Positions 7,101 through 52,426 of a stretch of 64,000 nucleotides of DNA are shown piece by piece. A model generated the notes under the pieces. That model did no database searches, was not told the origin of the DNA, and saw nothing but the letters and a program-made list of their open reading frames with translations. Position 1 is the first letter of the stretch; every line of letters begins with the position of its first letter. Made by a program: the position numbers and the translations under genes. Source of the DNA: Argopecten irradians (lineage: Eukaryota > Mollusca > Bivalvia > Pectinida > Pectinidae); NCBI RefSeq assembly GCF_041381155.1, contig NC_091144.1:31366980-31430979 (forward strand), read 5' to 3'.

Positions 7101-10100
7101 TTTCCAGCATAAACTGAAATCATCATTTTTGACTGCACAAATCCTTTAATTATATCCGTCAACGATATTTGTTAGCCTTCAGAAAATATTGAAAGAATAA
7201 TGGTTCAAATGGTAATCCTGTGGTTGACACAAGAACATTCAAATTGAAATAATCTGAACACATGTGTACATAAAAACCTCAATTATTTTGTCAAATGTTT
7301 TACTGACTTGGAGACAATTCCAATATAATAATGTTTGGCTACAATGAAGTATTTCTAGTTGTGCATATTTCCGAAAACATTAAGTTTGTAAAAAAAAAGA
7401 TCTTTTCAATTAATTTTTAAAATTTTGGACATTTTTTTAAAAAGTTTTTAATTTAATTTTAATTTTAAATTATGTCATGGTGCGTTGTCCGTCTGTCCAT
7501 CAATGTTTCCTTTATATCGACATATGGCCATTAGTCATAAAGTTGTGCGTGGATTTAAACCAAGTTTGGCCAGAAAAATCCTCTGGGTTATGGGAACAGA
7601 ATTAATATAAATTTTGCCTCTGATGTGTCTGTCAGTCACTTGTAATTTATAAATTTCTATTTACCAGCCCTTTGGAATGAGTCAGGACAGACCAGATTGA
7701 AGAAGTTAGCAAAACTATTGGCTCTCAGTGTTCCTTTCAGGTAAGTAAAGCTTCAGGAAGTCTTCATGTTTCAAAGAAAAACAAGAATTGTTGATTTGTA
7801 ATGAGTCATAATTTGATCAAAGATAGAACAACATATTAAATATTTATGTTGTTAATTTGTTTAAAAGTGTTTAAATGCATGTAGATGTGATTTGTTTTCT
7901 TGCCTTTTGCTTAATTTGAAACTAATGTTTTGCTTGTTTTCTGCATAAAGGGAATTTGGATGTGTGGTTTGCCCGTTATATTGCTATGGGATGGGGTGTG
8001 CTTGTTTGGTGTCTTCATACTTCACTGAGATAGCACTATAAAAAGAACAAGAGATCCTCTTTTACGAAAAGACACAACACATCTATATCTCAGTCTCCCA
8101 AAACATGCACTTTACACATGCAGCACAAAGCATGCATGGGAGGCCGTACTTACATAACTGATGCTGTTAATTATACTAGGATGTTAATTTAATCAAACAA
8201 ATATCTGCAACTAGCAAATCATCAACAGTGTCTGACAGCATTTTTCATTGCTATTGAATTTATTTTCTGGACTGAAAAACATTATTGACAAGGTGGCTTA
8301 ATTCTGGTACGATTTATATTTTGTAGCCCTACCAAAGAATTTTCCTCCTAGCTGTGACCTGATGTGGAAATCTCAAGTTTCCTGGATTGAAGATTAGGTC
8401 AAATGATATTGCATAACTTGTGATTAAGTATTAAAGTATTTTATTTCTGTCATTCCGGTTTAAAAGTATTTTCAAGCACTGTGCCATGGAAAGAATAGTG
8501 GCATATAAATGGTGTTACCTGATCATGAGTTGTTGTCCTGTCCCGGACATTTCTGTGTTTTATAGATATACGTCTCCCCTAAGGTTTATATCACAGACAA
8601 TAGACAAGTAAATTTTTAGAAATTTTTAAGTGTGCCAAATACGTTAAATCAGAAGTCAAATTAGTTCTTCAGTCAGTTTATTATAGCAGTTTTTAGGCAC
8701 TGTTTATATATTTTAATCACGCCATACTCCTTGGAGTTTGTAATTCTGACTTTTGATAATGCCTGAAAAATATTTTGCTTGCTGAATTGTGCCAAAGTTA
8801 CAAAATCAAAAAATCACAACGATTGCTCACCGCGTCCAAAGGACCAAGGGGTGATATTGCTATACTATGGTGGCATATGTCGTCTGTCAGCAACAAATTA
8901 ACCATTAATAACCCCTGATCAGAATTTAAACAAATAACAGGTGGGTATTCATTCATATTACTGTAGCCGTGTTCAAAGCTGTGAATATTGCTTATATATC
9001 ACCAGTACTAAGATTGAAGTGGCATCACTATGGTGCAATGGTTCAAAATTTTACAAATGGTTGAGTTAATCCTAAAGGAACCTGAAGGACTGAGTCACGG
9101 TTGGATGCACACTTGTTTAATTTGTCATTAGCTCACTTGCCGGTGAGCTTATATCATGGCCTGGCGTCCGACCGCTGTCAACATTTCCTTTAAATTGATA
9201 CCAGTCATAGAGTTCCACTTCGATTGTAACCTCCTTTGGCGAGAAACATCCTTGGGGAAAGGGGAAAAAAGTTTGTAAAAATGTTGACTCTGACCCCCTG
9301 GGGGCAGGGTGGGGGGGCAGGAACAGCCTTGGAGGAAGTAGAAAATGTTTGTATAAATTTTGGCTCCGCCCCCCCGTTGGCAGGAGGAACTGGGTCCAAT
9401 AGGAGATATAGAGGTTAATTCTTTAAATCGCGACTAATCATAGTGTTCTGTATGGATTGTAACCAAATTTGGCCAGGAACAACCATGGAGGAAGGGAACA
9501 GGTTTGTATAAATTTTGGCTCTGACCCCCGGGGGTAGGAGGGGCAGGGTCTGACAGGGAAATTAAAGAGTTTAATATTTAAATTCCTTCAAAAAAGAAAC
9601 AATGATCTTGTAATACAGTATTCAGAGCATTACTTGGCATTACAACCAGGTGAGCGATATAGACCCTCTGTGCCCCTTGGTTTTAATACATGCTGGAGTT
9701 TGAAATTGTGAAAGTGCCTCAATGATCTGCAAAACAGGAGTAATTTTCCAATGCTGTTGCAACAAAACATGTTCAGCAGGGGGCAGCAGGTGGTCAGTTA
9801 GCAACATCTCTTACCATATTTGACCCAAAAAGTGCCCCCGTCCTGATATGCACACCTTCCCCCTTTTTGATGTCTCAATTTTACTTTCATTGACTTAATT
9901 GGGTCAAATATTGTACATTGGTCTGGTGGAAATTTAATTTTGATTTTGTAAAAAAAAATGGTAATTTTGATTGTATATTGAGCTTCATGCGAATGTCAAT
10001 TCTGAATGGGAATTACAATACAACCTGTCAGTATTGACCCTTGTCTAATCCCTGAATATTCCACCTTAATTGTGTGACATTTTCCTTTTGGTATGCAATA

Positions 10101-10902: not shown

Positions 10903-12449
10903 AAAAATGTGATATTCAGTAATCTTGTTTTTTCCCCTTGTAACAAATCTTGTGGAGAGGGAAGAAGGGATGTCTCGAATGTTGTTCGGTGTTAATTAAA
11001 GATTGACCTCATTGATAGTCTAGATGTCTGGGAACTTCATTTAATCATTAGGGGAAATGATCTGAAGTAATATTTCTACATTCCAAATTCCTATGGGTGG
11101 TTGTACAATTTCACATTTTGATGACATTCAACTTTTGGTAGAGTTATGGCCCTTTTAGTAGATATTTCATCCAGAACTTTGTACCAAGTAGATCTAATTT
11201 ACTACAGAAGCAATATTGCTCAAACCTGTCGTTAAGAATTAATATACAGCTGTACCATTTCATTTTTCAGTCTAAAGATGATAATGCTATACGTGATTGT
11301 ATGAAAATTAGTGTCAGGATTTATACATGTGTATACAAATGCTGATAAGTGTAAGGAAGTGCTAGATCTGTTGGCATTTGCCTGGCTAGTTCTGTTATTC
11401 TATAAAAATGTTCTTCTTGTAAACAATATTTTGTTATCATGAATCTAAACATACTGAAAATGAGTTCCAAGAAGAATTTTAACAATGCATAGATACAATG
11501 TGTGTTAAAACATATTTGTCCAGACTATTATGATATAAAAAATAATTTTAATATCAACCTTTCAAACTACAGTGTAATTTTTACAAAGGAATGTACATTT
11601 TATTACATTATGCTTAAGTATAGTGGTTAAAATATTTACTTTCAAACGAATGATCAATACGTTATACGCTGCATTGGAACATAGTATAGCATTTACTTGG
11701 ATAGTGTTCTACAAAAAATCTCATTCAAAGGGCATTACTTATATGTATAACGATTTTATGTATATTAGTTAGTTAAAGTTGCTCCACCGCTGACAGAATA
11801 TAAACGATACCCCTCATTTGAACAATAACTGAGTTATAATCGTGTCTATGTATGTGTCTAATTAACACAAAACTGTTTTTGGTGGGTGCACAATCAGTAC
11901 TTAATTCCATATACCTGTAGGTCATAGTGCCAAGGAATTTTTTCGTAACGCAATTAATTTTTCTAATATTTTATGTTAAATAAAGAAGCTCAAACTTTTA
12001 ACTAGTGGTAATAGTGTAAAGTAAGTACCTTTTGTAACTGATCATGAGGAAAAATACTAATTTGTCTGCTCCTGTTTTTGATGGGGAAAAATACCATTGG
12101 TCGGCGATGGAGCATCTTTAAATGTACTGTGTCTGGTATGTGATCTTAACATGGAAAACAAGCCAAATGAATGTTTTTTTGTCAATAACTGATGTTTGCA
12201 TTTAATTTGATTTATATTGTGTATTGATTTTAAGGTCACCTTCAAAGAAGTGTCAAAATGACCTATTCTAGTTGTTTACCAATTGTCATCTGTTTCCATG
12301 TCTGAATTCTGTGAAACCCCTACACCAATTTATGCGTAACTAAAGTTTTGAAGATTGTTTTTCTCGATCTTAAGTCAACTATAACAGTACTAGTGTGATC
12401 TTAACACTATCTTTATTCTTCATTGCTATAAAGGTAATACCATTCTGAC

Positions 12450-12508
12450 TATCAGAGTTATCTCCCTTCTTTTGTAATGGAATAAAACCAAGGGAAGTAA
12501 CTCTGATA
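12450..12508. repeat. Short hairpin element (MITE remnant)
   Basis: Arms ATCAGAGTTATCTCCCTT (from about 12450) and AAGGGAAGTAACTCTGAT (to about 12508) are near-perfect inverted copies with a loop of about 20 nt. The unit 2 counterpart near 28699-28757 has lost part of the right arm. A related degenerate copy lies near 51942-51992 inside copy C. Confidence 0.5.
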
Positions 12509-13928
12509 GATCGAACTGTGATAGGACAATCTTGTACAATTTCCATTATTGTATTCACTTCAGATACTTTGTAGACCTATACATAGAAATGTATGGGGAA
12601 TTCAATTAAAAAAAGCCAGAATAAAAATAAGTGAAGTATACAGTATACAAATCATGTATGGGTCTGTTGATACAATGTTATTAACCATTAAAAGGTAATA
12701 CTAATATACTAGTCAAAGTTAATACTGTAATTAAATCGTGGTTTCAATATCAAATAAGATGTTTCCACACAGCACACTGTGCTTCTGCAATACTTTTATG
12801 TTTTATGTATAATCAAATTTGTTTTTAATCGCTGATTGTACCAATTTGTTATTATCAGCTTGTTAAAATTTGCATTATGCCAAGTTCATATTAAAAAAAA
12901 AACTTTTTACATTAATCATGTTTTGGAATTTTTTGTAGCAGAGCACTTGGATCATAGAAATTCTAATTGCTCCCCTGGCTTAGGGGCATATTACAGAACA
13001 CATTGGTATAAAAGTTTACAATTGGAATGTTGATTTCAGGTGTAATGAACCCAGTAATTATTCGAGGAGGTAAACGTTTAAACATTACAGTGCCATTTGT
13101 GTTGATGTTGTTTGCAACCAGTGCTTCATTTAAAAAGATGATTAATTGAGAATAGGTGGGTCGATTGGTTTGCCATTTGGGATTTTTGACAACGTTGTCT
13201 GCAATGTAAACTTATAAAAAGATTGATTTATTGAGGTTAGGATGGGTCGACTGGTTTGCCCGTTGCCAGAATAATTTGATCGACTGAGCCATTTGGGGTC
13301 TTTGACGTTATGTTTCTATAGGATTGCACTATAAACTGAGCAAAGGTTCAATAGAAACTTAATACGAACAAAGCATGTAGTCTCCCAATACACACACTGG
13401 AGAATGACCTAACTGTAGACAATAACGACAACGGTTAAAGTTGCATGTTTGTCAAAGTGATGGTAAGCGTGTCTGGACTATTTAGTGAGCATTTCCCAGA
13501 TTTCGGAGTACAGCAAAGAGGTGTACGTTATCAAGTCCTTAATCATGACTAGTCAACTTTAGGTCCGAAATATCCTGATTTACCAGGTATACTAGTGTAA
13601 GGTATTATCATTTCGCATCATTAGAAGAAGAATACGAAAAGTAATGAAGATCATTTTCCATCGTAATCGCTGGTCTCAAGGCGCATAAAATTGCATACAA
13701 ATTCTACGTCATGGTTCATACTTGTAAAATAAAATTTTGATGAACAATTAGATTTGAACGAAATACAACCTCTTTAATCAAAGTAGATTAACAAAATAAA
13801 AGTTCTATGAAGTGAAATGATTTTAAATAACCATATTCTATTATTCTTCGATAAATTTACAACCAGCAATCATGTAAAAACTTTCTTATCGCGATACTGA
13901 TTTTGTAACGTGGGACAATTACTGGATA

Positions 13929-14133
13929 TACTGTATGGTACACGTGAACCAACTTTTTCCCCGTGTTATTTACGCCACTGTTTATGTTTATTTCCGCGAA
14001 TGCATATGAACCTCGCTAATATTGATATATATATTTGCATTTAATTTTCAAATTCGAGAAAGTTCATCTTCGCGAAATTTTTGAAATTAAAATCGCGAAA
14101 CTTAATAGCCGCGAAAAAAGTTGTTTAACAGTA
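13929..14133. repeat. MITE with TACTGT ends and CGCGAA motifs
   Basis: It starts TACTGTATGG and ends AACAGTA, so the termini are inverted. CCGCGAA and TTCGCGAAA words lie inside, as in the other small elements of this window. No reading frame. The unit 2 counterpart is 30184-30388. Confidence 0.55.
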
Positions 14134-15049
14134 CCCCGAAAATGAAAACACGATGTGAATTACGATAATACAAATGCCAAATTTACTTGCAACATAAACC
14201 GCAAATATATTACCACTAAGTGTATAAACCCGCATATATTCACACACGCTCTCGTTTAAATTAACAACTAAGTCTAGTGCTTCACTTTCTGACGACAGCA
14301 TCAAAACAACACATCTCTTTTCCTAGTACAAGTGTTGGTGTTGCGTTTCAATGGATCCTGAACACGATGCTCCAGGAGTGCTTAGACCGTACATAATCAG
14401 TTATCTGCAACGCTATGTAACAAACAACCTAAGGCATTACCAGTGACAAAATATTTACTTGATTATCTTTCACCTGCTAATTCTAATGTCACATGCTAAT
14501 TTCACAATGCTAACACACCTTACAATCAAAGTTATTGTTTTTAATCATCCACACAATCAGATACTACCGTGTCGGTTTGTATTCAATATGACGTCTGATA
14601 TAATGTGTTTGGAATAGCATTTCAAGTGTAAACCGCACAGGACTACAATGTACTACATGTAGTATGTATGATTTAGGACTTCTTTTTGGCCCCAAAGTCA
14701 ATATTACTATGTTTAGAAATTAAGGTGCCGTATTTAAACAAATCAGCACATCCTTCATTCAATTATAGTGAGAGATCTAATAATTTGACAACTTTAGTTA
14801 CCATGGTAACCATCCAAAACATGCGTTAATCAAGTAATGTTTTGTCCATTTAAAAAAAATTATGATAACACATGTATAATAAAAAAAAAACCAACTTGAA
14901 CATATAGAGGACACAATCCATACATCGTTCTATCAATGTAACCGCATGTTGAGGTGTTTGCTACTGGGGTCAAACTTGTCCTCTCGAAAGTCATATAATA
15001 CAACGCGTTAGATAAGACACATTTCTGGTAATGTATGATCAAAGACATT

Positions 15050-15055
15050 TTTATT
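15050..15055 (-). terminator. Poly(A) signal of SLC7 copy A
   Basis: AATAAA on the minus strand, 39 nt after the stop codon of copy A. The same signal is present for copy B at 36536-36531. I do not find one at a comparable place after copy C. Confidence 0.6.
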
Positions 15056-15093
15056 TACATTTGGTGAGGTCATGACCATATGATACTTGGATG

Positions 15094-18000
15094 TTACAGG
15101 TCATCGTCCTTAACGACGTGAGTTGGCACCACCTCCAGTAAGCACTGTGTCCATCGTGTTAGGGTAACTACAATTAAATACAGAATATTCACTTTCAAAA
15201 GCAAGTTTTACTTAAAATTATTATAGATCCCTTAAAGTTATGTGTTGGAAACCTTTTGTGTGTTCTTAATTTAAAATGTATGTGTGCTTACCAAACAATA
15301 GTGAAAATATCAAAGTTTCGTCCTCACTCGATGAAATATAACTGGTATTCATCAAGAAACAAAGTATATCCTCTACGTATTATATAAAACTCTATATATG
15401 ACTTTCATAGTGATCCATGTATGAATAGTATTCATATACATTATAGTCTAAGAATACGAATACATTTTTCACTTCAACAACCGGTATTTTCTTACTCATT
15501 TAATTTTATTGAACTTGTGTATAATGTCCAGCGCGTCATTGGTACTTTCGGTTTGACAACAGTTTGCTAACGCTGCTTATGCAAGACATATTTCAATAGA
15601 ACTCTAGATACAATGTGTTTTTGACATGAAATCTCTGACTTTGACGTTAACCATCCATTATTATTTTTTGTTTGTTTGTTTTTTTTTGTTTGGTTTGGTT
15701 TTTTTTTTCGTTTTTTTGTTTGTTATATTCCCCTGCATAAATGCTTTCGATTTAATATAATAAAATAAAAACACTTACCAAGACCAGGGATTTGGAGTTT
15801 AAAATGAACCATCGGTATATACACCAGGGCCCCAAGACCTAGGAAAGCCAGGGCGTAAAGGAATTCTACTTTAGGGTTCTGTAGAAATGGGGCTATCACA
15901 AGGTATATACATATCAGTAGTACGAATACTGGTATCACCAGGGGTAACTGTAATGGAAACAATACCACAAGCATTGATTTAGTATCAAAAACAATTATCA
16001 GGGGTAACTGTAATGGAAAAAAAATACCACAAGCATTGATTTGATATCAAAAACAATTATCAGGGGTAACTGTAATGGAAAAAATACCACAAGCATTCAT
16101 TTGATATAAAATAATTATCAGGGGTAACTGTAATGGAAAAAATACCACAAGCATTGATTTGATATCAAAAACAATTATCAGTGGTAACTGTAATGGAAAA
16201 GATACCACAAGCATTCATTTGATATAAAAACAATTATCAGGGGTAACTGTAATGAAAAAAAATACCACAAGCATTGATTTGATATAAAAAAACAATTATC
16301 AGGGGTAACTGTAATGAAAAAAAATACCACAAACATTGGTTTGATATAAAAAAACAATTATCAGGGGTAACTGTAATAAAAAAAACTCTAATAAATCCGA
16401 TACTAGTAACTTTACATGTATCCAATATCACAAGCTGTTGGTCGGGAGTCTGCTTACCAGTTATAAAATTCTGTAACCGATTTACGGATTATATACATTG
16501 ACATCCAAAACTTTTTACAAATATACATTAAGTACAGAGATATGTAAATATTTCCAATACACGCATCAGTATATATAGTTTATCGACTTATTTATCTTCT
16601 CGAACTCATTGACTAACTAATTGCTTTTGTGAAAGTTTTCTTCGAGATAAATTGTCATTTCTTTTAACATTAGTAACATAACTTTTGGTGGGAAGTGTAT
16701 ATGTGTCTCTCTGTTTAATTATTACGGAAAGTTCAATGCATGTTAACCTAAGTTACATGCACAGTATATAATATTGATACGATATCCGAGGGGGAAGAAA
16801 CATGCTAATGTTATTAATCTTTGTAATAGAATACTGACGCCATTGTCTGTTACCAACATAATCAGCCTATCCCGCTATCTCTTTCTTCTATCTAATCTGT
16901 TCCTATTTTTAAGAAAACTAATTATGGTGATTTGAAATATAATGCTATCTAATAATGTTTGGATCTAACGTGATTTAACGTGTGTCTGACCCTCTTGCTA
17001 ATATGACAATAAATTATGTTTAAATTAAAATATCGTATAGCTGGATGTTTTCGCGGGTAAAATGAATAGTGATTTTAATTTAACTCCAGAAAAAATAAAT
17101 CTCTACAAAACAAAAATCTTTGCGACATCAATAATATCCTGCGAAATCGCAAAAAAAATCCCTGTGAAAATTGCCGACTATACGGTAGGATCACCATGCA
17201 ATCTGATATCATAAAATAGGCACTACCTATAACTGATTTATAAAAACAACAAAATAATGGAAATATCAGATGACAACAAATTTATTTTTTAAAGTATTGA
17301 ATTGATAATGGCGGTTAAAAGAAAATATGGCTGTTATGTTAAAAAAAATTCCTAATGGCAACTAAAGTTGCAAAACAAAGCATAAAATCTACCATTTCGA
17401 TAGATCATATCATAATGAACATCCCCGAAATGCTATTGAGAGGAACGCGAGTACAAGCGTCTATAAAATTGTGCATTTTAAGGGATGTGATGACAAAGAT
17501 ATGCATTAAAAGTTCTTTACCTTGATGACTCGTTCAGCATCTTTCATTTTCCATCTGAGTATAATAACAGCGACCATTGCCATTCCATAGAAAAGCCAGG
17601 AGAGGAAGTTCAGTAGGTTGAGAAGAGTAGCAATCTCTGCGGGGATCATGTAAATCATGCTTAAGGTCGTCTGATAGCAAAAAAAGGAATGAACGAGGAT
17701 AGAAACATTTATAAAATATCCAAATTTACAGCAAAACACACAACTGCGATTAACCGTTTCTTCTTTAAAATTACACTCTTTTTGTTTACCTTTTTGGTGT
17801 CTCTAGTATAACCAATTGATGAATATTTTTTGTTTATGTACGTGCCAGGGCTTACCCAAAGTATTTGAATAATTGGCTTGCCATTTGTCTTTACTTCACA
17901 ATCAATACCTACCCACAATGGCATAGAGCTCTGTAATATTCAAATCATTCTTGAATTTTTTGTTTCTGTTTTAACTTTCTTAAGTAACTTCTTATTCACA

Positions 18001-21000
18001 ATTTGAATAAAAAATCAATGAATATATAATCTGTAAACTGTACTAAATCAAAAGTGTAAGGGTAAGAACAAATGTATAGTGTTGACAGAACTCACAAGAA
18101 GCAGGACGGAAGGTAATGGAATCCGACTTTTGACATGGATGTATGAACACAGCTCAGGCATATGGTTTTCTCTGGCAGCCTGGAACAACAAGCTACTCAA
18201 AACAATGACACAATATCAATACCAGTAAGGAATCTCATATATTCAAATTGTATACCAGATAGTAGATAGCCAACAATTTTTTTGCTTAATTTAACAAACG
18301 AAACTTTGACTACACTAACCGTGAACTTGTGAAGCTGCTTCCATTGCTGGAGCCGTATACGGAACAGATGACGACGATGGGTATGAGGATGACAGCCGGC
18401 GGTATTACCTGTTCCGCCCAGGTCTGAAACGTAAGTGTTTTAGGCTATACTGGTAGTTGTGTTTTTTTCCCAATTTTGTGTCCGCGTGCTGAACGGTTTC
18501 TAGTTCACAAGGATGAAAAGCAAACACAAACATTTTGTTTTATCTGAGCAGTAAAATAAAAACCTGTGAATCAGAGCAATAACTAGACTGGTATTTGAAA
18601 AAAATTTAAAGTAATGTGTTGTTGATTTTTTACAGTGCTATCTGTTGTGGTAGATCATCTCTGTGTTACTTTATATGATATATCTTATTATGGAAAGCAC
18701 AAAAAAGTTTATATAAATTAATAAAATAAGTTCAATCAATAAAGACAAGTCATAATAAATGTTGAGAATAATGTGTAAAAGAGTAGTTGTAATAATATAA
18801 GACTGAGTTAAAAGTTATGAACAAAAGTTGAAAGAGTGACCTAATGTGTGAGGCTATATGTTGTGATGTGGCTGACCCTAGGTTTCCAACCTCGGCAGCT
18901 CTCCAAATAAAATTTGTTTGTTTTGAAAAAAAAAACTATCAATGCGAGCTGACAGAAACCAGGAGTCATACCCATACGTCACTGTCTGACTATTTGAAAA
19001 AAAATGCCTGGATTTCTCCTTTATTTTGCGAATATTTATTGCAACAGATGCAAAATGTAATAATGATGTAAGCAAAACATCTTTTTTTATTCCTGTGTAA
19101 CCTTTATGTACATTTACTTTTAAGTCGGGACATTTTTTCTGAACCACCCTGTACGTACCACTCCCACTGCCCATGACGATAGAAACTCGGTTTTGGTCAG
19201 GACAGCGAGATAGGAGGCGTTGACCAATAGGTAAACAATGGTGACCAGTATTACCGAGATCACGATGGCTAGAGGCAGGTTCCTGGTAAAAGATCAACGT
19301 GTCAGAAATGTCAAAAATGATCTTTATCACTTCTTCTCTAGATTCAGTAAAGACGATGATAAAATGATATTGCACTTTTATGAAATTTGGAATAGAAAAT
19401 TGATTCGTTTCCATAGAAAATAAACATGCTTTAAAAAGTAGGTTGATTAGAAGAAATGTTTTTACTTATCACGCGACAAAAATCCCTATAAATAAAAAGT
19501 AACTGAGGTAGTTCTGTTATAAATCTTCAGAATGCAATACAACAATACAGTTAAGTTTATTCGCCATACAGAATAGTTATACTTTAAAACATACCTCCTC
19601 GGTTTTTGAATTTCCTCTGTTACAAAATTTAGTCCTCCCCTATAAGAAAGAAAATCTAATTTTATTTAATTTTTCAATAAAACACATAAAACAGTTTTGC
19701 TAAGTGTTAGGATTTATCTTTAAGTAACTGCAGCTTACCTGCTAGAAAGCTACCTTACACAAAGGATTTTATTTATAAACACATATTAACATGATTATTG
19801 ATTACGATAAAATCATATAAGCACTGTGGTTTGAAGCATCAACTTCTACGTTTGAGTTTGACGTATAATCATTGACGAAATGTCTGTTCCTATATGTTCC
19901 TATATTTACTCTCACTAGTTTTGAATTTCTTAATATTCTCGTACAATATTGTGTACTCTTTTCTCCATTTACCATCCATCATAAGCCCAGAGACCGCTGT
20001 AAACCGCCAATGCCACATTCTGTACATCGTCTGTCGTACCTTCAAACCCAGTCACCAGACTTCCATATTTCCCTAAAATAATTAGTATTATCTTATTGGT
20101 ACATGTATATTTGCTCATTTATGAGCCACAACTGTTAATATAATATTAGTATTCTGATTCTTTTGGTTATATTGTTCTATTCATAATGTATATATCAATA
20201 CAGATGTAATTCAGCATTTTTTGAAAGCCAAACGATTACGCTGTAGACCAGTATATATACTTCACAATGATATATGGTTTATAAAATTGCCTTTCTTCTT
20301 CTGTACATATGCCATCATTACTAAGCAACTTTAAAACAGATGTAATGCGTTAAAACAGTTCAACCTTTAAATTCTCTCATACATTTTGTTTCACTTATTT
20401 ATCTAAATCTAACATCCGGGTCAGTAACTAACCTTGCGACATCCATATTATCCCTCCGATCATTATAACCACCAACCCCATCAGTTTGACGAACGTAAAG
20501 AAGATCTGTACCCGAGCTGTGAGTCGTACGCTGATAGAGTTGGTAATGGCCACTGATACTACAAAGGTTTCGAAGAAATCAAATCAATAGATCGTGGTAT
20601 GAAGCAATCTTCAATCACTTCATATTTACTGTATAGCAGGTTATTTTCGCGGGGATTATACCTTTGAGATTTCGCGGTCATTTCTATGATCATAAATATT
20701 TGAACCGTGAAATATTGAAAATGATAACTATTTATTATATACACTTAAAGCCAGATTGCAAAAAAATTGACCGCGTAAATAACCGGTTATACGGTATTGA
20801 AGTAGATATTGGGCTACGTTATTTGATCTTTCAAAGTCTCTTGCCTTTCACCGGCAGAATTGCGCTTTCAATTCATGTCAATGCATCCACTTAGTTTACA
20901 TTTTTGTAGGTATTGAAGTAGATATTGGGCTACGTTATTTGATCTTTCAAAGTCTCTTGCCTTTCACCGGCAGAATTGCGCTTTCAATTCATGTCAATGC

Positions 21001-24000
21001 ATCCACTTAGTTTACATTTTTGTATGTACTGTTATACTGTAAACACACTTAGTTCAGCACAGTTTAATTTTAGCGCAAGCCCTGTAAATTATCATTTATT
21101 AGATATAAATAAGTGCATTTCGGTGGTACCCGTTTACAAAATTTACCGCTGTACATGAATTAGCGCTTCAAATACAGCACATAAATCACTAAAATAAAGC
21201 CACCGCTAAAATACGTTCAGCTACAGTATTCGTTTTGCTCTCTGCTGAATAGTGTTGTGATACTATTTGTCATTTCAGATTGTATTGTTCATATAAAAAT
21301 TCCCGCAAAACTAGGTCATGGTGTGAATGGCTTATGGAGAGTTGCTTTAACCAAATGGATGACGTTTTGATATCATGACTGAACAACGTATGCGCGATTC
21401 GCTAGTTTCAATAAAATATCTTTAAACTATATCCGAGTTCCTGTTGGATAGTGGTTATATTTTATCCGTTAACCAATGTTTTTTCTCTGGTAATTTATCT
21501 TGATACATGTAGTTGTTAACAATTATATCACGAATTAACGTAGCGAAGTGATCAAATCGTCGTCATCATGCCTTAAAGCAAAATATATGTAAATCAACAA
21601 TAACTTGGATACTCACATACAGCTGTAGTTGCTATGACCTTTTTTATGTTTGTCGACTGACTACAATCATCAAGTATTACTTCTGATAGATACTCAGCTA
21701 ATGTGAGAGCTTTCACTGTCATTGCACCCGGCATTACTGCTAATGCCTGACACCAAACATACATAAAGGCCACGAAAGATCCGTAAGTCTTCAGAAAGTA
21801 CGCATGCTCAGCACCCGACTTCCGGATTAGCGTTCCAAGTTCAGCATATACCAGTGCGGCTGTAAAACAATGTAACCAACCGATTTAGTAAAAAGATTAT
21901 CAGATAACGCAAAATACCTTGTTTTTGTAAAGTTATTGAAGTGTTATGATCTGCACGACAGGTAAATAATTGTATATGATGTAACTAAACTTTGATATTG
22001 TCTTTCTAGAAAATTGTAATAATTTGTTTGAACGGTTTAAAATATTCTGTAATCTCTTAACATATTTTTTTTTTCATTTGGTGATTACAGTTATAACATA
22101 CACATCCTTTGTATAACGATGTGAAAAAAGAAAATCATGAATTGTGAAACTGTAAAACAAAACCGTACCAATAAATTGACGAAATAAACTATTGCGTAAA
22201 AAGGAAAAATTATGACTTCAAATTACACGAGCTATATCTTAGTAATCACAAGTAATTAATACACTTTCTAATTACCACACATGGAGATGACGCCACACAG
22301 AGCCCAGACCACCAGACACAGGCCAACAGATCCTGTTTTAGCCAAGACATTCCTGGGGGATATAAAGATACCTGACCCTGAAAAAGATGAAGTTTTCATG
22401 GAAAAGGTATGAAGTATTTGTGTTTCATTTATAGCAGATGACAAATAATATAACAAAATAGATGGATCATTTCTGCATCATATCTCTTTCTTGTTCAGTG
22501 ATGTTAAGAACCAAATGTATTGTTAATTGGAGACGATGAAATTTAAATTGCAGCCACTCGTCAGTAATAATCTCCCTTCATTCATCTGTCATCAATTACC
22601 TTTGTTCGTTAGTTATTATCTCCCTTTGTTCGTCAGTATTTGTCCCCCTTTGTTCTTAGTCATTGTCTTCCTTTGTTCGTCAGAAATTGTCTCATTTTGT
22701 TCGTCAGTTATTGTCTCCCTTCGTTCATTAGTTATTGTCTCCCTTTGTTCGTCAGTTATTTTCTCTCTTTATTCGTCAGTTATTGTCCCCCCCCCTTGTT
22801 CGTCAGTTATTATCTCCTTTTATTCGTCAGTTATTGTCCACCCCCCCCCCCACTCCCGTTCGTAAGTAATTATCTCCATTGGTTCGTCAGTTATTGTACT
22901 TCCTTGTTCGTCAGTTATCATCTTTTATTCGTCAGTTATCATCTCCCTTTATCAGTTACTGTCTCCCTTTGTTCGTCACTTATTGTCTCTCTTTGTTTGT
23001 CAGTTATTGTCTCCCTTTGTTCGTCGTAAAAACCTTTATGAATTATCATGACTGTGTACTAAATAAAAAACTCTTTTATGCTTTATTATGTAGTTATTTG
23101 ATTTCGCAGGGAAAACTGTTTGCGCATTTGCAATTGTTAATAAGCTATCTTGTTATTAGTTTTATTTTATTTGCGAGCATTTACATTTTCGAAAATTTAA
23201 TAGATCTCGAATATAGCGAAATAATACCAAAAGTAATAAATGTTTTCCTGGTATGAAACAAAATCGACAAAAATAGATATGCAATGGTATCTTTAATATT
23301 GAGATGCGTTATTCAAAACCACGAACACTTTGTTCGTGGGAGGCAAACACGGAGAAGATTGAGGTTACATTTTATTAGGTGGAACATCGCGTTGGTTTAT
23401 AACACAAATATCATATCAAAGCCACGAATACGTAGTTCAGCAACATTATTACATCGCAGGCCGATATAAAAATACACAAGAATAGTGTAGAAACAAACAA
23501 ACCATTAGCACAGAGGCTTATGAAGAACAGATAACGTTAAGCTAGTGTTACTTAGAAGTCAATGTTCTAGACTCCACTGACAAGCTTGGGATTACAATCA
23601 CGGGTCAAATTTAAATAAGTCATCAATGCGTTGATAAGGTGGAAATGAGGACAAAACACCACTTAACTTTCCATATCTGATCGGGAATATTTATTTTCCA
23701 CGACCAGAAGACTGCTGAAGAGATTGCGTTAAATTTGTGCTTGTAAAAAATGATACTATACATGTATTTGGCATATTATCTCTTTTTTTATTTTGCCAAA
23801 CGTTTCACTTGATTTGACCTCGAGATGACTGTTCGCTTCTGTGAGGTCTATCACCTACCCTTGAATGTAAACGTGATATTTTCTGAGTCTGCTTAATTAT
23901 CGGTCGGCATATGAATGAGATGACATGCGTGTCCGCTGTCAGTATAGTGTGACCAAGCGGAGTACAATTATCGGTGTCTTTGGCAGCATGCTTCCGTGAG

Positions 24001-25333
24001 ACAACGTTTAAATGAGCCACAATTTCGTCTATGTTTAGATAATATCACAGCCTCCTTAAACACACAGCAGCTAGCAGCACTATTGTTGTATACATGGGAG
24101 GTCGTCCGAAGAGGACATAAGCTTTTTATAGGCTATTTAGCATAACAAACCAAGACATTGTCACGAAAATAAACAAAAATACTTTTTACTACATATTTAT
24201 CCATATGTTGTTTTCAAATTATGTATAATGAAAAAATCAAACAAATGACAAAGTTTAATTTGAACTGGACGATGTGATTTTTTTCCTATATTTACATGGT
24301 AAAGTTAACTACGTCGCACCACCATAAATGATCGAACAAAGGTTTTGTAAAATCACTGAAACATCCTTCTTTTTAACATAACTATTTTAAACCTTTTTAT
24401 TTACACGAAGTCAATATTTCATGTTTTTGTTCTAATCAACATTTTCACTAATTCATAAATTAGCGATAAGGAACACCAAATGACAATCGTGCATTCATGA
24501 ATACAATAATTCGAGAAACAATTGAATTTCAAACTCGGACTCCCTCGTGAATTCATGCGAAAATTTGTATCCTGTGAAAAGTTATTTACAGAAAACAGTA
24601 CAAATTATATGCATACTTTTGTACGTTAAGGCCTAAATTAACACTGTTGTGTCTATTAGTAGTGGGGTGTCGTTAACATATTGGTAATGAGGGTTACGAC
24701 CTTTTACAGACATTTAAAGACTGATGGCCTTGATTTCATGTTCTTTTTATGTTAAAATTGTCAATATTATCAAATACTTACGCTGAACATTTTAATGTTG
24801 CATTTATATAGACTTAGGTATTATCATATGTAAAAATGCATAAAGGGACAAAGTCTTAATACGTATTGGAAGTTGCATTTATATCGGCTATAAACCGGTT
24901 CTAATAAAAGCAGAAGTAGTTTGGTCACTGTGATCTGTGTACAAATGTCTACTCAAAAGCACGTTCACCGCCATTAAAAATGGTAATAGCTTTTTGTTTA
25001 TTGTAAGCCGAACATGAACCCACACAAGTTGAAGAAGGCACGTTATGTCTGGAACTACTATTTGTGGTCTTTGCATAACTTACTGTAATTCGTCTTCGGT
25101 ATGAGTAACAAAAAATGAGATTGGGTATGTACCAAAATTATATAGCTCCTCTTCAAACTTAACTTCCGCCGACCATTTTACGATTTATAGCAAATCACCT
25201 AGATGCCATGTAGTTTCATATGTGTTAACTCACCTATGATGCTACCAACTATAAAGGATATTGAACTTAATAAACCAAGTCGCCGCTTGACCCCAAATTT
25301 CTCTACGGTAACTTTGTTGGTAGTTTCTGACAT
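15094..25333 (-). CDS. SLC7A9-like: SLC7 amino-acid transporter light chain, copy A (12 coding exons, 477 aa)
   Basis: Exons, 5' to 3': 25333-25234, 22377-22276, 21859-21617, 20558-20433, 20072-19973, 19639-19595, 19282-19159, 18423-18320, 18192-18096, 17670-17521, 15947-15779, 15167-15094. All junctions are GT-AG, and the lengths sum to 1434 nt in one frame. The protein has the TM1 GSGIF motif (about residue 34), [14 protein letters not shown] before it, and [11 protein letters not shown] with Cys133 where light chains disulphide-bond to an SLC3 heavy chain. It also has [21 protein letters not shown] and a VVP tail. Family knowledge: such carriers exchange amino acids at the plasma membrane as a heterodimer; b(0,+)AT (487 aa in human) handles cystine and dibasic amino acids. 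Assignment to b(0,+)AT rests on the TM10-12 and C-terminal pattern; another LAT branch is possible. A sister copy lies directly upstream. Confidence 0.93.
15941..16384 (-). repeat. Minisatellite carrying the exon 11 splice acceptor (copy A)
   Basis: Eight units of about 60-63 bp, counting the functional one. On the gene strand each unit ends with a T-rich tract and CATTACAG followed by TTACCCCTG, which is the real 3' splice site plus the first bases of exon 11. The seven extra units lie in the intron upstream of the used acceptor (15948). Units differ by a few bases and by A-run length; some have CATTACAG, others TTATTACAG. Confidence 0.9.
17030..17188. repeat. MITE in intron 10 of copy A
   Basis: The ends ATCGTATAGCTGG and GCCGACTATACGGTA are imperfect inverted repeats, with TTTCGCGGG near the left and CCCTGTGAAAA near the right. 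The counterpart in unit 2 is about 38510-38668. No coding capacity. Confidence 0.5.
17674..18045 (-). other. Intron 9 block conserved across copies A, B and C
   Basis: About 370 bp next to the exon 10 acceptor align with copy B (about 39150-39525) and, unlike most introns, also with copy C (52427-52875). C carries a few small insertions. Part of the block (near 17850-17930) shares a GGGTAGGTATT word with a small element at 53066-53200, so some of it may be repeat-derived. A 71-113 codon open frame on the gene strand in A and B is not kept in C. Confidence 0.55.
20627..20796. repeat. MITE with palindromic ends in intron 3 (copy A)
   Basis: Left end TACTGTATAGCAGGTTATTT and right end AAATAACCGGTTATACGGTA are near-perfect inverted repeats, with CGCGGGG and GACCGCG just inside. 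The counterpart in unit 2 is 42096-42261. It lies immediately beside the 117-bp duplication at 20793-21026. Confidence 0.7.
20793..21026 (+). repeat. 117-bp tandem duplication private to unit 1
   Basis: Two nearly identical 117-bp units (20793-20909 and 20910-21026), each starting GTATTGAAGTAGATATTGGG. Unit 2 has a single copy (about 42259-42375), so the extra copy arose after the large duplication or was lost from unit 2. Confidence 0.85.
21035..21228. repeat. MITE with TACTGTA/TACAGTA ends in intron 3
   Basis: Begins TACTGTAAACACAC and ends TACGTTCAGCTACAGTA. The inner parts TTTTAGCGC and CCGCTAAAATA are also inverted. Unit 2 counterpart 42385-42578. Same general style as the element at 20627-20796, different internal sequence. 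Confidence 0.6.
22565..23028. repeat. 24-bp minisatellite in intron 1 coding side (copy A)
   Basis: Roughly 19 degenerate units of TTATTGTCTCCCTTTGTTCGTCAG. Because the period is a multiple of three, several frames stay open and give spurious 112-129 codon frames of repeated LFVSYCLP-like octapeptides. It lies in the intron between coding exons 1 and 2. The copy in B is longer. Confidence 0.9.
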
Positions 25334-25388
25334 CTTCCTGGATCCTTGTTGACTGTGTACAATTCGAGTCAGGGACAACACCAAGTGC
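25234..25388 (-). other. First coding exon of copy A with 5' UTR part
   Basis: The acceptor TTATTTACAG puts the exon start at 25388. The 55 nt before the ATG (25333-25331) are untranslated, so at least one further noncoding exon is expected upstream. The equivalent exon is 46897-46744 in B and about 60569-60394 in C. Confidence 0.65.
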
Positions 25389-27771
25389 CTGTAAATAATG
25401 ATACTGATCATAACATTTCTAAGTGACATTTATTGATACACACACGTATTTTCAAATATATTTTCACATACAGAGAACAGAGAGAACAGACTTATCCCTT
25501 ACAAAAACACAATTTTTGCATTGCTAATGCGATATCAAAAACTTTATGAACGAGGTTTTAAAAGCATCCTGCTTTTAATCTCCACATTAAACTCTTACTG
25601 GAATACCTACAGATTACGTTTTAAAAGTCTTCAATATTTTATCGCTCATTCAGAAATATAGATCTATTTGTAAGACAGCACCTTTGAAAATGTTTGTTCG
25701 GAAGATACCATTGTACACCTACCTTTAAAATCGTGTAAAACTCGATCAAACCTGTGTTGTGACGTTCATTCAATGACGAAAATATGACATGCATACATCT
25801 GTATTTTGTCTACATGCGGCTGGGCTGTACTGCAGTGGCATGGTACATTATATTGTCGGTGTAATAGGTACCACCCAAATGGTTTTATTAGCGAATTACA
25901 ATGATAGAAACTTCTAATATATGCATGGACATCAACCGTGCCAACTAGTGACAACAGCTAACTGTGCCGAATAAAAGTAAAAAATAACAAAGATGTCCGA
26001 GTTGTGACTATAGTAAACTTGTCAGAAAAAAAAACCCCAACAAAAACAACATTATCGCATAAATACAAAATTTGGTCGTGGTTTCATTACTGTGTGCTCT
26101 TTTGGCTATAGATATGTGACTGCAGTCACAAAATAAATAGGACGATTTTCAGCTACAACTTGACACAGTTTCAGGTTTGGTATCTTAATTAGTGTCATTT
26201 GATATTGGTTTAATCATGGAAGAGGTTGACGTAAATCTGTTTTGTACATTAAATTGGTATTGTGAGTGGAGCTAAAGGTAGATAGGTCAAACAAGGAGAT
26301 ATATTGGCCAGGTACCAACTACTTAAATCAGAATATAACGTTTATCAGGTTTCTATCGAAATGTGATGCAGATGCAGTATTTTGAATAGACGTTCGATCA
26401 ATTGCACGCACTAGTTACGTTGAGAGAGAAATATTACATAAAAATACTGTAAATCATTTTGTTTTTTTTATATGTAGACTAGACTGAATATCCTTGCATA
26501 AATTATTGTTTGAAAGATGTTACCTCGCTGCTTTTTTTGCCATTTTCATTTTTTCTATATAAGAAATAGAAGCAAACGAAATAGTATTTTTCTTCAGATA
26601 CAAATGTTACCTACTTTACACCATTACCATCATTGAAAAAATGAGCTTCTTATTTTACTTCAAGATAAAAATATTAAAAAAATATAAGTTGAGTTCGAAC
26701 AAAAAGTCCATGGCTCTACGCCATATATAGAATGAAGCACAGATTGTGCATCCACCCAAAGCAAAACAAGTTATATAATGTTAATTAGACTTAAGTTTAT
26801 GTACATTAATTAACACTTATTACTGTTCAAATGATGAGTATCGTTTATACACTGTCGGCGGTAGAGCATATTTAAGATATAAAACAATAAACGATACATT
26901 CTCCTATTCCAAACTTTTGTGTTTTGAATTGTTCATATATTATGTCAATTTAACGGTAATTTATAGATATTCTTAATATGGCAACGCTGTTTCACCATCA
27001 AAGTCCTATTATTTAACATTTGCGCTAGCCAAATACTTGTGAAGAGGTGATGTCAGGTCGTAACCTTTAAGTTTGACTAAGATGTTTGTCTAAGGATATA
27101 CACAGAAAAAGTAAACGTTGTGTCAATGATACTATTTAAGAGTAAAGGTCAGCCTACAAAGTTGACTATGTGATAAGATGTGTGATTTTAAGCATATTTT
27201 GAAGATTTGATTATATATAAAACAGTATTTTCGAAATAAATTGCTTGTTTTGTGTAAATATTTGCAGAATGGATAAACACCAACAACAATTTATAAGAAA
27301 AGTAGTGGATGTAAATTATTAACTACCATTTAGCAATTTAATAATTTATCAATTTTCGATATTTCTGCTAATATTTTCAATTTGAAGGTGACTTTTATTC
27401 TAGTACTCCATTGTGTGAAAAAGACATTTACAAAGATATATTAATAAAAACAACATCTGTGTTTAAGTACAACAGCAAAATTTGTGTAGTGCGACTTGAG
27501 AAAATCGTTAATATACTGCTGTTGTCGGTTCTTCAATAAATGCATTGCCCTTTCTTCAATAAATGCATTGCCCTTAGTATATTTGTATGATATTCAATTG
27601 TTCAATCATTATATGCAAAAAAAATTGCAATAAAGAAAATGAATTTATTGATTTCACACTGTGAAAATTAATTAGGCATATTCTGACAACATGACACCAA
27701 AAAATATACATAAATTTAGAATATACAATACCAGGAATTCAGACCGAGGGAAATGAAAGATGAATACTCAC
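25389..27771 (-). other. Long 5' UTR intron of copy A
   Basis: AT-rich with no exon visible. It contains a 317-bp stretch (about 25929-26245) that is absent from unit 2, and a dispersed repeat at about 26700-26885 that is an inverted relative of the repeat at about 11774-11945. A 26-bp word around 27535-27575 is tandemly doubled here but single in unit 2. Confidence 0.55.
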
Positions 27772-27855
27772 CGACAGTAGAAGTTGACAGTGGTCTTGTT
27801 TATGGCGGTGTCCAAATTACAAAAAAACATTGCACCTGTCTGTCCACGAAAGATT
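27772..27855 (-). promoter_or_regulatory. Putative noncoding first exon and promoter of copy A
   Basis: On the minus strand, CTACTGTCG|GTGAGTATTC gives a good splice donor (intron starts 27771). The same sequence in unit 2 has its donor at 48954. The first exon would lie within the roughly 80 bp between this donor and the duplication edge at 27855. Everything further upstream differs between A and B. This is inferred from the donor and from the 5' UTR acceptor at 25388. Confidence 0.45.
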
Positions 27856-30800: not shown

Positions 30801-30859
30801 CATCCACACAATCAGATACTACCGTGTCGGTTTGTATTCAATATGACGTCTGATATAAT
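27856..30859. other. 3' flank of copy B left of the retroelement
   Basis: Repeats 11606-14602 of unit 1. No gene is visible. It holds the unit 2 counterparts of the hairpin element (about 28699) and the MITE (30184-30388), and serves as the region upstream of copy A. Confidence 0.6.
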
Positions 30860-31116
30860 ACTGATTACCGACGTGTACGGTAATCAAAGTTATTGAAGCC
30901 ATTATGGAAGTTTAGTATGTGTCATACGTAAGGTCACAGGAGTTACCCCCCTTTGACAGTAGTTAATAATTTAGAGTTATCTCGCTTTGCATAGGAAAGC
31001 ATTGTATAGAACGTTATCCCAGCATGCTAAGTTAACATCCGGTCATCGACAGATTAGCAAATAAGAGGCACATGCTTGCAGAGAATTTTAATTTGTACTG
31101 ATCGGATTTCTTAAGT

Positions 31117-33799: not shown

Positions 33800-33800
33800 G

Positions 33801-34595
33801 ATGTGGCCTGTGCCTATCAATCATTTGCTACAATATGTGGCTTATTTATCTATCAGTGGAGCATCCCCTAGCACTACACAAACTTACTTGTCAGGTATAA
33901 GTTACCACCACAAAATTAAGGGGTGGGGGGATCCTGCAAAACAATTTTTAGTACAGAAAGTTATGGAAGGTTATAGGCGTACAAAGGCATCTCCTGATGT
34001 GCGAGCTCCAATTACCTTAGATATCTTAAGGAAGATTGTAGGTGCATTACCGTTTGTTTGCACTTCAACATATGAAACAAGTTTATTTCGTGTGGCCTTC
34101 CTGTTAGCCTTTTATGGCTTTATGAGGGTTGGTGAACTTACTAGTACTGCTAATTCAGATCATGCAGTGGGACTATCAGATGTGTCTTTAAATGATCAGG
34201 AGGTGACATTAAAACTAACCCACTCAAAAACAGATCAGACAGGTAAGGGTCATATTTTGGTTATCAGTGCTTGTCCAGATTTATCATTGTGCCCGGTTAA
34301 GGCAACATCAGCATTCCTTAGGATACGTCCTAAATCTCTAACTCGTGAATTTCTTTGCCATGCTAGTGGAAGGTCATTGTCGCGTTACCAATTTTCAGCA
34401 GTTTTGAAGAAAACATTGCAGTTCGCTAATGTCCCAGCTGCCAATTTTAAAACTCACAGTTTTCGCATAGGGGCGGCGTCTGCGGCTTCGTTGCAGGGAA
34501 CTTCGGATGAACAGATAAAAGTGCTGGGCCGCTGGAAGTCGGCATGTTTTCAGAGATACATACGTATTAGTGCTCCAACATTGTTATGCCGTTAG
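33801..34595 (+). CDS. Tyrosine recombinase part of the Ngaro-type element
   Basis: An N-terminal SAM-like segment (YVAYLSISGASPSTTQTYLSG) is followed by a catalytic region with FMRVGEL, THSFRIGAA, LGRWKS and FQRYIR. These are the Arg, His-x-x-Arg, Trp/His and Tyr positions of phage-integrase-type recombinases. In this family the recombinase replaces the DDE integrase of LTR elements. Treated as a fossil part. Confidence 0.88.
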   Translation: MWPVPINHLLQYVAYLSISGASPSTTQTYLSGISYHHKIKGWGDPAKQFLVQKVMEGYRRTKASPDVRAPITLDILRKIVGALPFVCTSTYETSLFRVAFLLAFYGFMRVGELTSTANSDHAVGLSDVSLNDQEVTLKLTHSKTDQTGKGHILVISACPDLSLCPVKATSAFLRIRPKSLTREFLCHASGRSLSRYQFSAVLKKTLQFANVPAANFKTHSFRIGAASAASLQGTSDEQIKVLGRWKSACFQRYIRISAPTLLCR

Positions 34596-36574: not shown

Positions 36575-39500
36575 TTACAGGTCATCGTCCTTAACGACGT
36601 GAGTTGGCACCACCTCCAGTAAGCACTGTGTCCATCGTGTTAGGGTAACTACAATTAAATACAGAATATTCACTTTCAAAAGCAAGTTTTACTTAAAATT
36701 ATTATAGATCCCTTAAAGTTATGTGTTGGAAACCTTTTGTGTGTTCTTAATTTAAAATGTATGTGTGCTTACCAAACAATAGTGAAAATATCAAAGTTTC
36801 GTCCTCACTCGATGAAAAATAATTGGTATTCATCAAGAAACAAAATATATCCTCTACGTATTATATAAAACTCTATTTATGACTTTCATAGTGATCCATG
36901 TATGAATAGTATTCATATACATTATAGTCTAAGAATACGAATACATTTTTCACTTCAACAACCCGTATTTTCTTACTCATTTAATTTTATTGAACTTGTG
37001 TATAATGTCCAGCGCGTCATTGGTACTTTCGGTTTGACAACAGTTTGCTAACGCTGCTTATGCAAGACATATTTCAATAGAACTCTAGATACAATGTGTT
37101 TTTGACATGAAATCTCTGACTTTGACGTTAACCATCCATTATTATTTTTTGTTTGTTTGTTTTTTTGTTTTTTGTTTGTTTTGGGTTTTTTTTCGTTTTT
37201 TTGTTTGTTATATTCCCCTGCATAAATGCTTTCGATTTAATATAATATAATAAAAACACTTACCAAGACCAGGGATTTGGAGTTTAAAATGAACCATCGG
37301 TATATACACCAGGGCCCCAAGACCTAGGAAAGCCAGGGCGTAAAGGAATTCTACTTTAGGGTTCTGTAGAAATGGGGCTATCACAAGGTATATACATATC
37401 AGTAGTACGAATACTGGTATCACCAGGGGTAACTGTAATGGAAACAATACCACAAACATTGATTTAGTATCAAAAACAATTATCAGGGGTAACTGTAATG
37501 GAAAAAATACCACAAGCATTGATTTGATATCAAAAACAATTATCAGGGGTAACTGTAATGGAAAAAATACCACAAGCATTCATTTGATATAAAACAATTA
37601 TCAGGGGTAACTGTAATGGAAAAAATACCACAAGCATTGATTTGATATCAAAAACAATTATCAGGGGTAACTGTAATGGAAAAGACCCCACAAGTATTGA
37701 TTTGATATTAAAAACAATTATCAGGGGTAACTGTAATGAAAAAAAATACCACAAATATTGATTTGATATAAAACAATTATCAGGGGTAACTGTAATGAAA
37801 AAAATACCACAAGCATTGGTTTGATATAAAAAAACAATTATCAGGGGTAACTGTAATAAAAAAAACTCTAATAAATCCGATACTAGTAACTTTACATGTA
37901 TCCAATATCACAAGCTGTTGGTCGGGAGTCTGCTTACCAGTTATAAAATTCTGTAACCGATTTACGGATTATATACATTGACATCCAAAACTTTTTACAA
38001 ATATACATTAAGTACAGAGATATGTAAATATTTCCAATACACGCATCAGTATATATAGTTTATCGACTTATTTATCTTCTCGAACTCATTGACTAACTAA
38101 TTGCTTTTGTGAAAGTTTTCTTCGAGATAAATTGTCATTTCTTTTAACATTAGTAACATAACTTTTGGTGGGAAGTGTATATGTGTCTCTCTGTTTAATT
38201 ATTACGGAAAGTTCAATGCATGTTAACCTAAGTTACATGCACAGTATATAATATTGATACGATATCCGAGGGGGAAGAAACATGCTAATGTTATTAATCT
38301 TTGTAATAGAATACTGACGCCATTGTCTGTTACCAACATAATCAGCCTATCCCGCTATCTCTTTCTTCTATCTAATCTGTTCCTATTTTTAAGAAAACTA
38401 ATTATGGTGATTTGAAATATAAAGCTATCTAATAATGTTTGGATCTAACGTGATTTAACGTGTGTCTGACCCTCTTGCTAATATGACAATAAATTATGTT
38501 TAAACTAAAATATCGTATAGCTGGATGTTTCGCGGGTAAAATGAATAGTGATTTTAATTTAACTCAAGAAAAAATAAATCTCTACAAAACAAAAATCTTT
38601 GCGACATTAATAATATCCTGCGAAATCGCAAAAAAAATCCCTGTGAAAATTGCCGACTATACGGTAGGAACACCATGCAATCTGATATAAAATAGGCACT
38701 ACCTATAACTGATTTATAAAAACAACAAAATAATGGAAATATCAGATGACAACAAATTTATTTTTTAAAGTATTGAATTGATAATGGCGGTTAAAAGAAA
38801 ATATGGCTGTTATGTTAAAAACAATTCCTAATGGCAACTAAAGTTGCAAAACAAAGCATAAAATCTACCATTTCGATAGATCATATCATAATGAACATCC
38901 CCGAAATGCTATTGAGAGGAACGCGAGTACAAGCGTCTATAAAATTGTGCATTTTAAGGGATGTGATGACAAAGATATGCATTAAAAGTTCTTTACCTTG
39001 ATGACTCGTTCAGCATCTTTCATTTTCCATCTGAGTATAATAACAGCGACCATTGCCATTCCATAGAAAAGCCAGGAGAGGAAGTTCAGTAGGTTGAGAA
39101 GAGTAGCAATCTCTGCGGGGATCATGTAAATCATGCTTAAGGTCGTCTGATAGCGAAAAAAGGAATGACCGAGGATAGAAACATTTTCAAAAAATATCCA
39201 AATTTACAGCAAAAAACACAACTGCGATTAACCGTTTCTTCTTTAAAGTTACACTCTTTTTGTTTACCTTTTCTGGTGTCTCTAGTATAACCAATTGATG
39301 AATATTTTTTGTTTATGTACGTGCCAGGGCTTACCCAAAGTATTTGAATAATTGGCTTGCCATTTGTCTTTACTTCACAATCAATACCTACCCACAATGG
39401 CATAGAGCTCTGTAATATGCAAATCATTCTTGACATTTTTGTTTCTGTTTTAACTTTCTTAAGTAACTTCTTATTCACAATTTGAATAAAAAATCAATGA

Positions 39501-51093: not shown

Positions 51094-52426
51094 TTACAAG
51101 TCATCATCCGTAACGATGTCAGTTGGTACCACCTCCAGTAAGCACTGTGTCCATCGTGTCAACGTGACTACAATGAAAGATTAATAAATGGCCACTACTT
51201 TCATCTTAGGTTTATTTTATGATAAAATCCGTACCCATTATGATAACCCTTTTTATGCCTAAATGACCATGTAATAAACACTCGTTTTATATATATGCTT
51301 ACCGAACGATTTATTAATGCGTATGTAAAGTACGCAAACGTACAAGTCTTAAAAATGAATGTGACTTTCATATTGCACTAAGGACTTATCATTATTAATA
51401 TGCAATTATTCATGCATAGCAATTGATATAATTTTTGTAACCATTTGTAACTATTGTATCTCGGTTTACAAGAACAAAACATTCATGATAATGACACATA
51501 TGTTAAATCAAAAGTACATAAACTCTATTCGTTCTCTATGCAATATCGCTTTTGATTGGCTTGTTCAGTGGCGTACTAATTCAAAAGCAAATAGTCCACG
51601 TCATATAGTGATAATTCAAATGATTTCTTGGTTTTGTTGTGCTATATCTCCATGACGTAAAATGCAATCACATTAATCTTTGAACACTTACCAAGACAAG
51701 GGATTTGGAGTTTGAAATGAACCATCGGTATATACACCAGGGCTCCAAGACCGAGGAAAGCCAGGGCGTAAAGGAATTCTACTTTAGGGTTCTGTAGAAA
51801 CGGCGCTATCACAAGGTATATACATATCAGTAGTACGAATACTGGTATCACCAGAGGTAACTGTAATGGAAAACATGCGTTGATTTGATATTATAAAACG
51901 ATTATTATCTGAGGTAAATGCAAAATAATAATATCAGAGTTACTCCCCCCCCCAGTCGCCAGTAAAGAGTGAAAAGAAGAGAAGTAACTCTTATGCATTA
52001 TACTGACTGTTTTTGAGGAAACCGTATCAAAATATCATTCACTGCTATTCTGTAGCATAAAACTGGTATTATCAAAGTTAGGTTAGAACAATAAATAAAA
52101 CAAAATCTATTTACAAATAATTATAGAAATATCAAGTCACATCACAACAAAACGATTACGTATTCAATGGATAGGAGAGATAATTAGGAAAAAAACGAAA
52201 ATTCTGAGACATGCTGGGAAATAATAAAACTTTATTGTCAAATGCCCTTATACTAATATTAAAGGTTCGTTACCTTGATGACCCGTTCAGCATCTTTCAT
52301 TTTTTATCTGAGAATAATAACAGCTACCATTGTCATTCCAGTAAAAAGCCAGGCGAGAAAGCTCAGTAGGTTCAGAAGAGTAGTGATCTCGGCGGGGATC
52401 ATGAAAATCACACTTAAGGTCGTCTG

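Follow-up and report, generated by a model that had tools for sequence, protein, structure and literature searches.

The window analysed here is a stretch of 64,000 nucleotides from Argopecten irradians (contig NC_091144.1, positions 31,366,980 to 31,430,979). A b(0,+)AT-like SLC7 gene is present in it, on the minus strand, as three copies designated A, B and C. The Pfam family AA_permease_2 is hit by exons 1-3 at E 9.8e-19; the part encoded by exons 10-11 falls under the cut-off of that family by itself (21.6 vs. 27 bits). Exons 10 and 11 joined give an ungapped match over query residues 3-101 with the b(0,+)AT chains 6yup_D, 6li9_B and 7nf6_B (E 1e-21 to 9.1e-20). Copies A and B form a tandem pair of duplicates, in which 11602-27855 pairs piecewise with 27853-49036 at 91-97% identity and the two blocks abut at 27855/27853. 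Copy C begins at about 51.7 kb and is more divergent from A and B than these are from each other. About 5.2 kb of the B block (30859-36059) is missing from the A block, and TRF reports a 116-bp tandem duplication (99% match, 20793-21028) for the A block but not for B. A 24-bp minisatellite occupies 431 bp in the A block (22599-23029) and 643 bp in the B block (43937-44579).

The exons that matter here are the tenth and eleventh. Exon 10 of copy A (17521..17670, minus strand, 150 bp, TTLSMIY...ERVIK) ends in phase 0; it lies in an open reading frame, and its edges come from homology and from the acceptor found for copy B. Exon 11 of copy A (15779..15947, minus strand, 169 bp) starts in phase 0 and has its real acceptor at the high-coordinate end, with a CAG directly before 15947 and the donor GTAAGT at 15773-15778, both edges being placed by reading. 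The peptide of exon 11 in copy B (37264..37432, minus strand) is identical to that of A, and exon 11 of copy C lies at 51692..51860, also on the minus strand, so that the first base of the exon is 15947 in A, 37432 in B and 51860 in C. A first-pass annotation of this DNA had called exon 11 the last-but-one coding exon, a description that fits three paralogs, each with a short further exon. Exon 10 of copy C contains an in-frame TAA (ILR*KMKD, 52304-52306, minus strand). Because of this stop, copy C may be a pseudogene, and its value as a clean single-acceptor control is weakened.

In A and B the acceptor of exon 11 is part of a minisatellite. The array of copy A (15939..16385, minus strand; TRF 7.4 copies, score 700) extends 9 bases into exon 11, and that of copy B (37424..37865, minus strand) has the same TRF copy number and a score of 698. 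When the arrays are split between CAG and TTACC, each copy shows eight acceptors ahead of exon 11, of which seven are spare and one is real. The first-pass annotation had arrived at the same seven spares per copy, and the TRF arrays and the count at this joint bear it out. Every unit carries CAG plus about 9 exon bases, and a unit therefore covers the exon-intron boundary together with its splice signal. The general form is a T-rich tract, (C/T)ATTACAG and then TTACC(C/A)CTG, much as had been described from the first reading; the outermost acceptor departs from that description in both copies, reading TATTACAG and not CATTACAG, and in A the bases after the fourth acceptor are TTACCACTG and not TTACCCCTG. 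Unit lengths are 62, 62, 59, 60, 58, 62 and 60 bp in A and 61, 59, 60, 60, 58, 60 and 60 bp in B, so that these two paralogs of one assembly share the number of spares and differ by 1-3 bp in the length of four units. The 24-bp minisatellite described above, by comparison, differs in length between the same two blocks. A DNA search of the whole 846-Mb genome with the array, by a method that passes over very common words, gave two candidates; both were scored, and they are the A and B arrays themselves.

Copy C has a single acceptor at exon 11, in line with the earlier statement that it has essentially one, and a degenerate unit start in the intron upstream. There TTACCTCAGATAAT is found 57 bp before the exon start TTACCTCTG, and it is preceded by CAT instead of CAG. 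The last 62 intron bases of C align with the unit at a score of 48, compared with a maximum of 24 in 300 shuffles. Unit remnants sought farther upstream in C were not found (scores of 17, which 236 and 220 of 300 shuffles equalled or beat). Two histories would both fit these sequences: copy C may be near the state that preceded the duplication and retain the short direct repeat that seeded it, or it may have lost a spare by a small deletion.

The units also carry information on the age of the array. When all A units are compared with all B units, A1, A5 and A7 find their best match at the same position, and A4 and A6 are equally close to B4 and to B6, which are identical in sequence. A2 is nearest to B1 and A3 to B5. 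The matching, mostly at the same position, indicates that the array was largely built before A and B separated, and the two displaced pairs suggest some exchange between units since then.

To estimate acceptor strength, a PWM was built on 60 acceptors (median 8.8) that belong to nine SLC7 genes in the same genome; it is rough because the training sites were picked by a simple rule. The real site scores 7.0 in both copies. The spares score 8.0, 8.1, 8.1, 7.6, 7.9, 7.9 and 10.1 in A and 8.0, 7.7, 8.1, 6.6, 7.9, 7.9 and 7.9 in B, where six of the seven lie above the real site. For background introns, 74 of 3224 AGs score at least 7. Scores so similar to that of the real site make some use of the spares plausible. 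A branch-point-like TACTAAA, which resembles the branch-point motif, occurs in only two of the 14 units, the exon-proximal A7 and B7; these carry GATACTAAATC and the other twelve ATATCAAA. By reading, its adenine lies about 31 bases ahead of the AG. By the general consensus for such sites TACTAAA would be a candidate branch point, and the change that produced it is one event common to A and B.

The reading frame separates the units further. The exon-proximal unit of A (15948..16007, minus strand, 60 bp), the only one of the seven A units with TACTAAA, is in frame and would add 20 residues. The nearest spare reads into exon 11 from 60 bp away; the six farther spares of A run into stops after 22-46 codons. 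The two nearest spares of B, at 60 and 120 bp, are open and in frame, as the first-pass annotation had noted, and the five farther ones stop after 22-106 codons. A graded acceptor system would be marked by spares that keep the frame, which here is kept by one of seven in A and two of seven in B. The insert predicted from spare use is hydrophobic, of the (L/F)VVLFPLQ type with 20 residues per unit, and would fall in what we take, from the usual helix numbering, to be the loop before the last two helices.

Constraint on the array, which would be a sign of use, was sought in the divergence of A and B relative to the flanking introns, and none was found. Of 432 aligned sites in the array 10 are different, as are 18 of 2178 in the flanking introns (6 of 1110 and 12 of 1068) and 0 of 171 in the exon stretch. 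The array is the more diverged by both substitutions (Fisher P 0.017) and indel events (P 0.024), and is thus conserved no more than intron. The AGs are intact at all 14 spares. Given the rate seen (33 substitutions in 840 sites), all of them would stay intact by chance with a probability of about 0.33, and their intactness is therefore uninformative on selection.

Arrays at splice junctions are also found elsewhere in this genome. A genome search with the exon 11 peptide gave 11 loci. At one of them, L013 (C2, near 68.634 Mb), an acceptor array at 577-1533 lies at the homologous exon 11 joint and is unrelated in sequence. It has 16 acceptors at an exact spacing of 57 bp, and all 15 units read IFLPLPILFIVCFNLIVFQ or a close variant, with no stop and in frame. 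Units 1-4 recur as units 12-15, which indicates recent expansion, so that selection is not required to explain the open frame. Exon 9 of this gene is interrupted by an in-frame TAG. In locus L039 exon 10 is flanked by arrays on both sides, an acceptor array at 7691-9011 (period 43, TRF 30.7 copies, with TTATTCCACAG before the joint and TCTTTGGTAGG after it) and a donor array at 9131-9577 (period 40, 11.0 copies). Other donor arrays occur at exon 5 in L043 (36 bp) and at exon 9 in L049 (61 bp) and L037 (58 bp); the last two are at homologous exons and may represent one event. Some candidates proved to be of a different kind. The array in L032 stops just short of the exon and repeats no AG joint. 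A 43-bp array in L037 (7307-7562) was dropped as junction-spanning because the upstream acceptor lies outside it, which changed the count from 8 of 20 to 7 of 19 arrays. This L037 array lies within the exon start and its unit is not a multiple of three; exon 9 of the gene has an in-frame stop.

Of 23 loci matched in the genome, 17 lie outside the nine SLC7 genes; they were judged by TRF rows at the matched exon only. One of these is a clear case (L033 is ambiguous): a sugar-transporter exon outside the SLC7 set, in L030, has a donor array at 1721-2385 (51 bp, 13.0 copies). A muscle-myosin stretch of 9.5 kb (L058) has two arrays, neither of which overlaps a matched exon. The muscle-myosin gene on C5 gave seven matches to a scallop sequence, six at 89-94% identity and one at 70%, as suits a bivalve; a COX1 match was sought in the assembly and not found.

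Arrays of period 25-250 make up 22,665 of the 302,129 bp examined, a chosen sample in which some loci overlap and are counted twice; in 11 copies of SLC7 genes, 16,164 bp out of 74,161 bp of intron belong to arrays with a period of at least 20. The null model lets single units arise uniformly and removes those that fall in exons, for nine genes (with A standing for A, B and C) and 142 internal boundaries. Under it 1.98 junction-spanning arrays are expected in the nine genes, and seven of 19 are observed (P 0.0016). Leaving out A gives six of 16 vs. 1.55 expected (P 0.0023), leaving out A and one exon 9 array five of 15 vs. 1.44 (P 0.0095), and leaving out A and the L037 gene four of 11 vs. 1.06 (P 0.015). 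By TRF edges the seven arrays kept all reach at least 7 bases into the exon. A looser rule that accepts any contact within 30 bp, and still includes the dropped L037 array, gives six observed vs. 4.26 expected (P 0.23). The excess in SLC7 genes is suggestive and no more than that, since homology was used to place the exon edges, the exon set is incomplete, one gene family is represented and the looser rule gives this higher P.

The best explanation for the array, to which we give a probability of roughly three in four, is a neutral splice-junction minisatellite of the mirage type known from lancelets, with the exon-proximal acceptor used and the spares removed with the intron. The likely seed is TTACC.C.G, a short direct repeat that stands at the exon start and a second time in the intron, 57 bp upstream, as copy C still shows; the stretch between its two occurrences was probably duplicated in tandem. 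The duplication would then have grown to seven extra units, mostly ahead of the A/B split. Splicing most likely uses the acceptor of the exon-proximal unit, which combines the best branch-point-like motif with a complete exon downstream, and the spare acceptors would depart with the intron. We infer this seeding route, the exclusive use of the proximal acceptor and the neutrality of the array from the patterns described above.

The first-pass annotation had proposed two functions for the array, graded acceptor use and a splice buffer, and neither finds support here. With graded choice, a low level of splicing to the nearer spares would insert 20 hydrophobic residues ahead of the last membrane-helix pair, once in isoforms of A and once or twice in those of B, and farther spares would lead to stops and lower the mRNA by decay. 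The PWM scores of the spares, similar to that of the real site, and the open frame of the nearest spare in both copies, and of two in B, speak for it. We nevertheless regard it as unlikely: an insertion would break a joint that is ungapped in solved relatives, all farther spares end in stops (11 of 14), the array diverges more than the flanking introns and is without sign of constraint, and copy C does without spares, though it may be a dead copy. As a buffer, the spares would be kept by selection either as cover for the joint should the real site be lost or to titrate splicing factors. The 14 intact AGs are what such a role would leave, but intactness is expected with a probability of about 0.33 in any case, and the 11 spares that lead to a stop could not rescue the protein; this role is very improbable indeed. 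An assembly artefact, with A and B as two alleles placed in tandem or an array of the wrong length, would account for blocks that abut and pair piecewise at 91-97% identity, a value that may fall within allelic difference in bivalves. It is nonetheless improbable, given that the window contains no N, that some 5.2 kb of the B block is absent from A and that other loci carry junction arrays unrelated in sequence; even if it were true, one array would remain.

What deserves to be followed up is that junction arrays recur in this genome; a use for the spares is unproven, and we do not favour it. A broader proposal, which we offer as a rather doubtful one, is that minisatellites arise preferentially at splice junctions in this bivalve, perhaps by a route linked to transcription or splicing, that many of its genes hold arrays of spare donors or acceptors, some of them feeding isoforms or new introns, and that this genome-wide class is one named mirage only in lancelets in the literature searched. 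If junction arrays are common, they provide a natural test bed for how the spliceosome chooses among near-identical sites. Acceptor arrays with 7, 15 (L013) and 25 spare acceptors, along with the spare-donor arrays, form a graded natural series in one gene family of one genome.

Several known systems share features with the A and B arrays. NAGNAG tandem acceptors likewise offer more than one acceptor per exon; their acceptors are 3 bases apart, whereas those of A and B are 58-62 bases apart. A junction-spanning minisatellite from a mollusc was not among the literature matches listed, in a search mostly outside subscription papers. An intronic minisatellite is described in an abalone TSSK1-like paper and is not placed at a junction in the text examined; one in C. 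elegans is tied to alternative splicing, and the text examined describes no repetition of splice sites. The human interferon-induced gene 6-16 (IFI6/G1P3) has, by the title of the report, a minisatellite with multiple splice donors. It resembles A and B in repeating a splice signal and differs in that the repeat is on the donor side and, again by title, the sites serve in the transcript. In human segmental duplications, internal tandem repeats at exon-intron boundaries are reported, which can switch on cryptic splice sites and give rise to introns (PMC2812944). These too are boundary minisatellites in recent paralogs, but they come with transcript evidence, whereas the A and B arrays are known from sequence.

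The closest likeness is to the mirages of amphioxus. These are tandem units, there of 10 to about 160 bp, over an acceptor or donor junction (PMC3087553, PMC3902484). In the globin gene BflGb6 the 3' end of an intron and the start of exon 2 are duplicated, as intron end and exon start are in A and B, with 6 and 3 units in two haplotypes (PMC3087553). Adh3 data and RT-PCR of globins suggest that regular splicing is undisturbed by mirages, and the same paper notes that the repeated signals might serve as cryptic sites (PMC3087553). In PGBD5 repeats also lie over splice sites, and the mirages of Adh and TnC are cited as being without aberrant mRNAs (PMC3902484). That junction arrays can yield new introns was proposed for the amphioxus globins (PMC3087553), an idea that common junction arrays in this genome would also put to the test. 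The authentic junction is kept in both systems, which is shown here by the ungapped homology across the joint. The amphioxus mirages are reported to vary in unit number between haplotypes and to be somatically unstable, and cDNA data are given for them; the A and B arrays come from one assembly, are found in another phylum and have an exonic share of 9 bases. The match in structure places them in a kind of repeat already named in lancelets, of which the A/B array would be a further example in another phylum.
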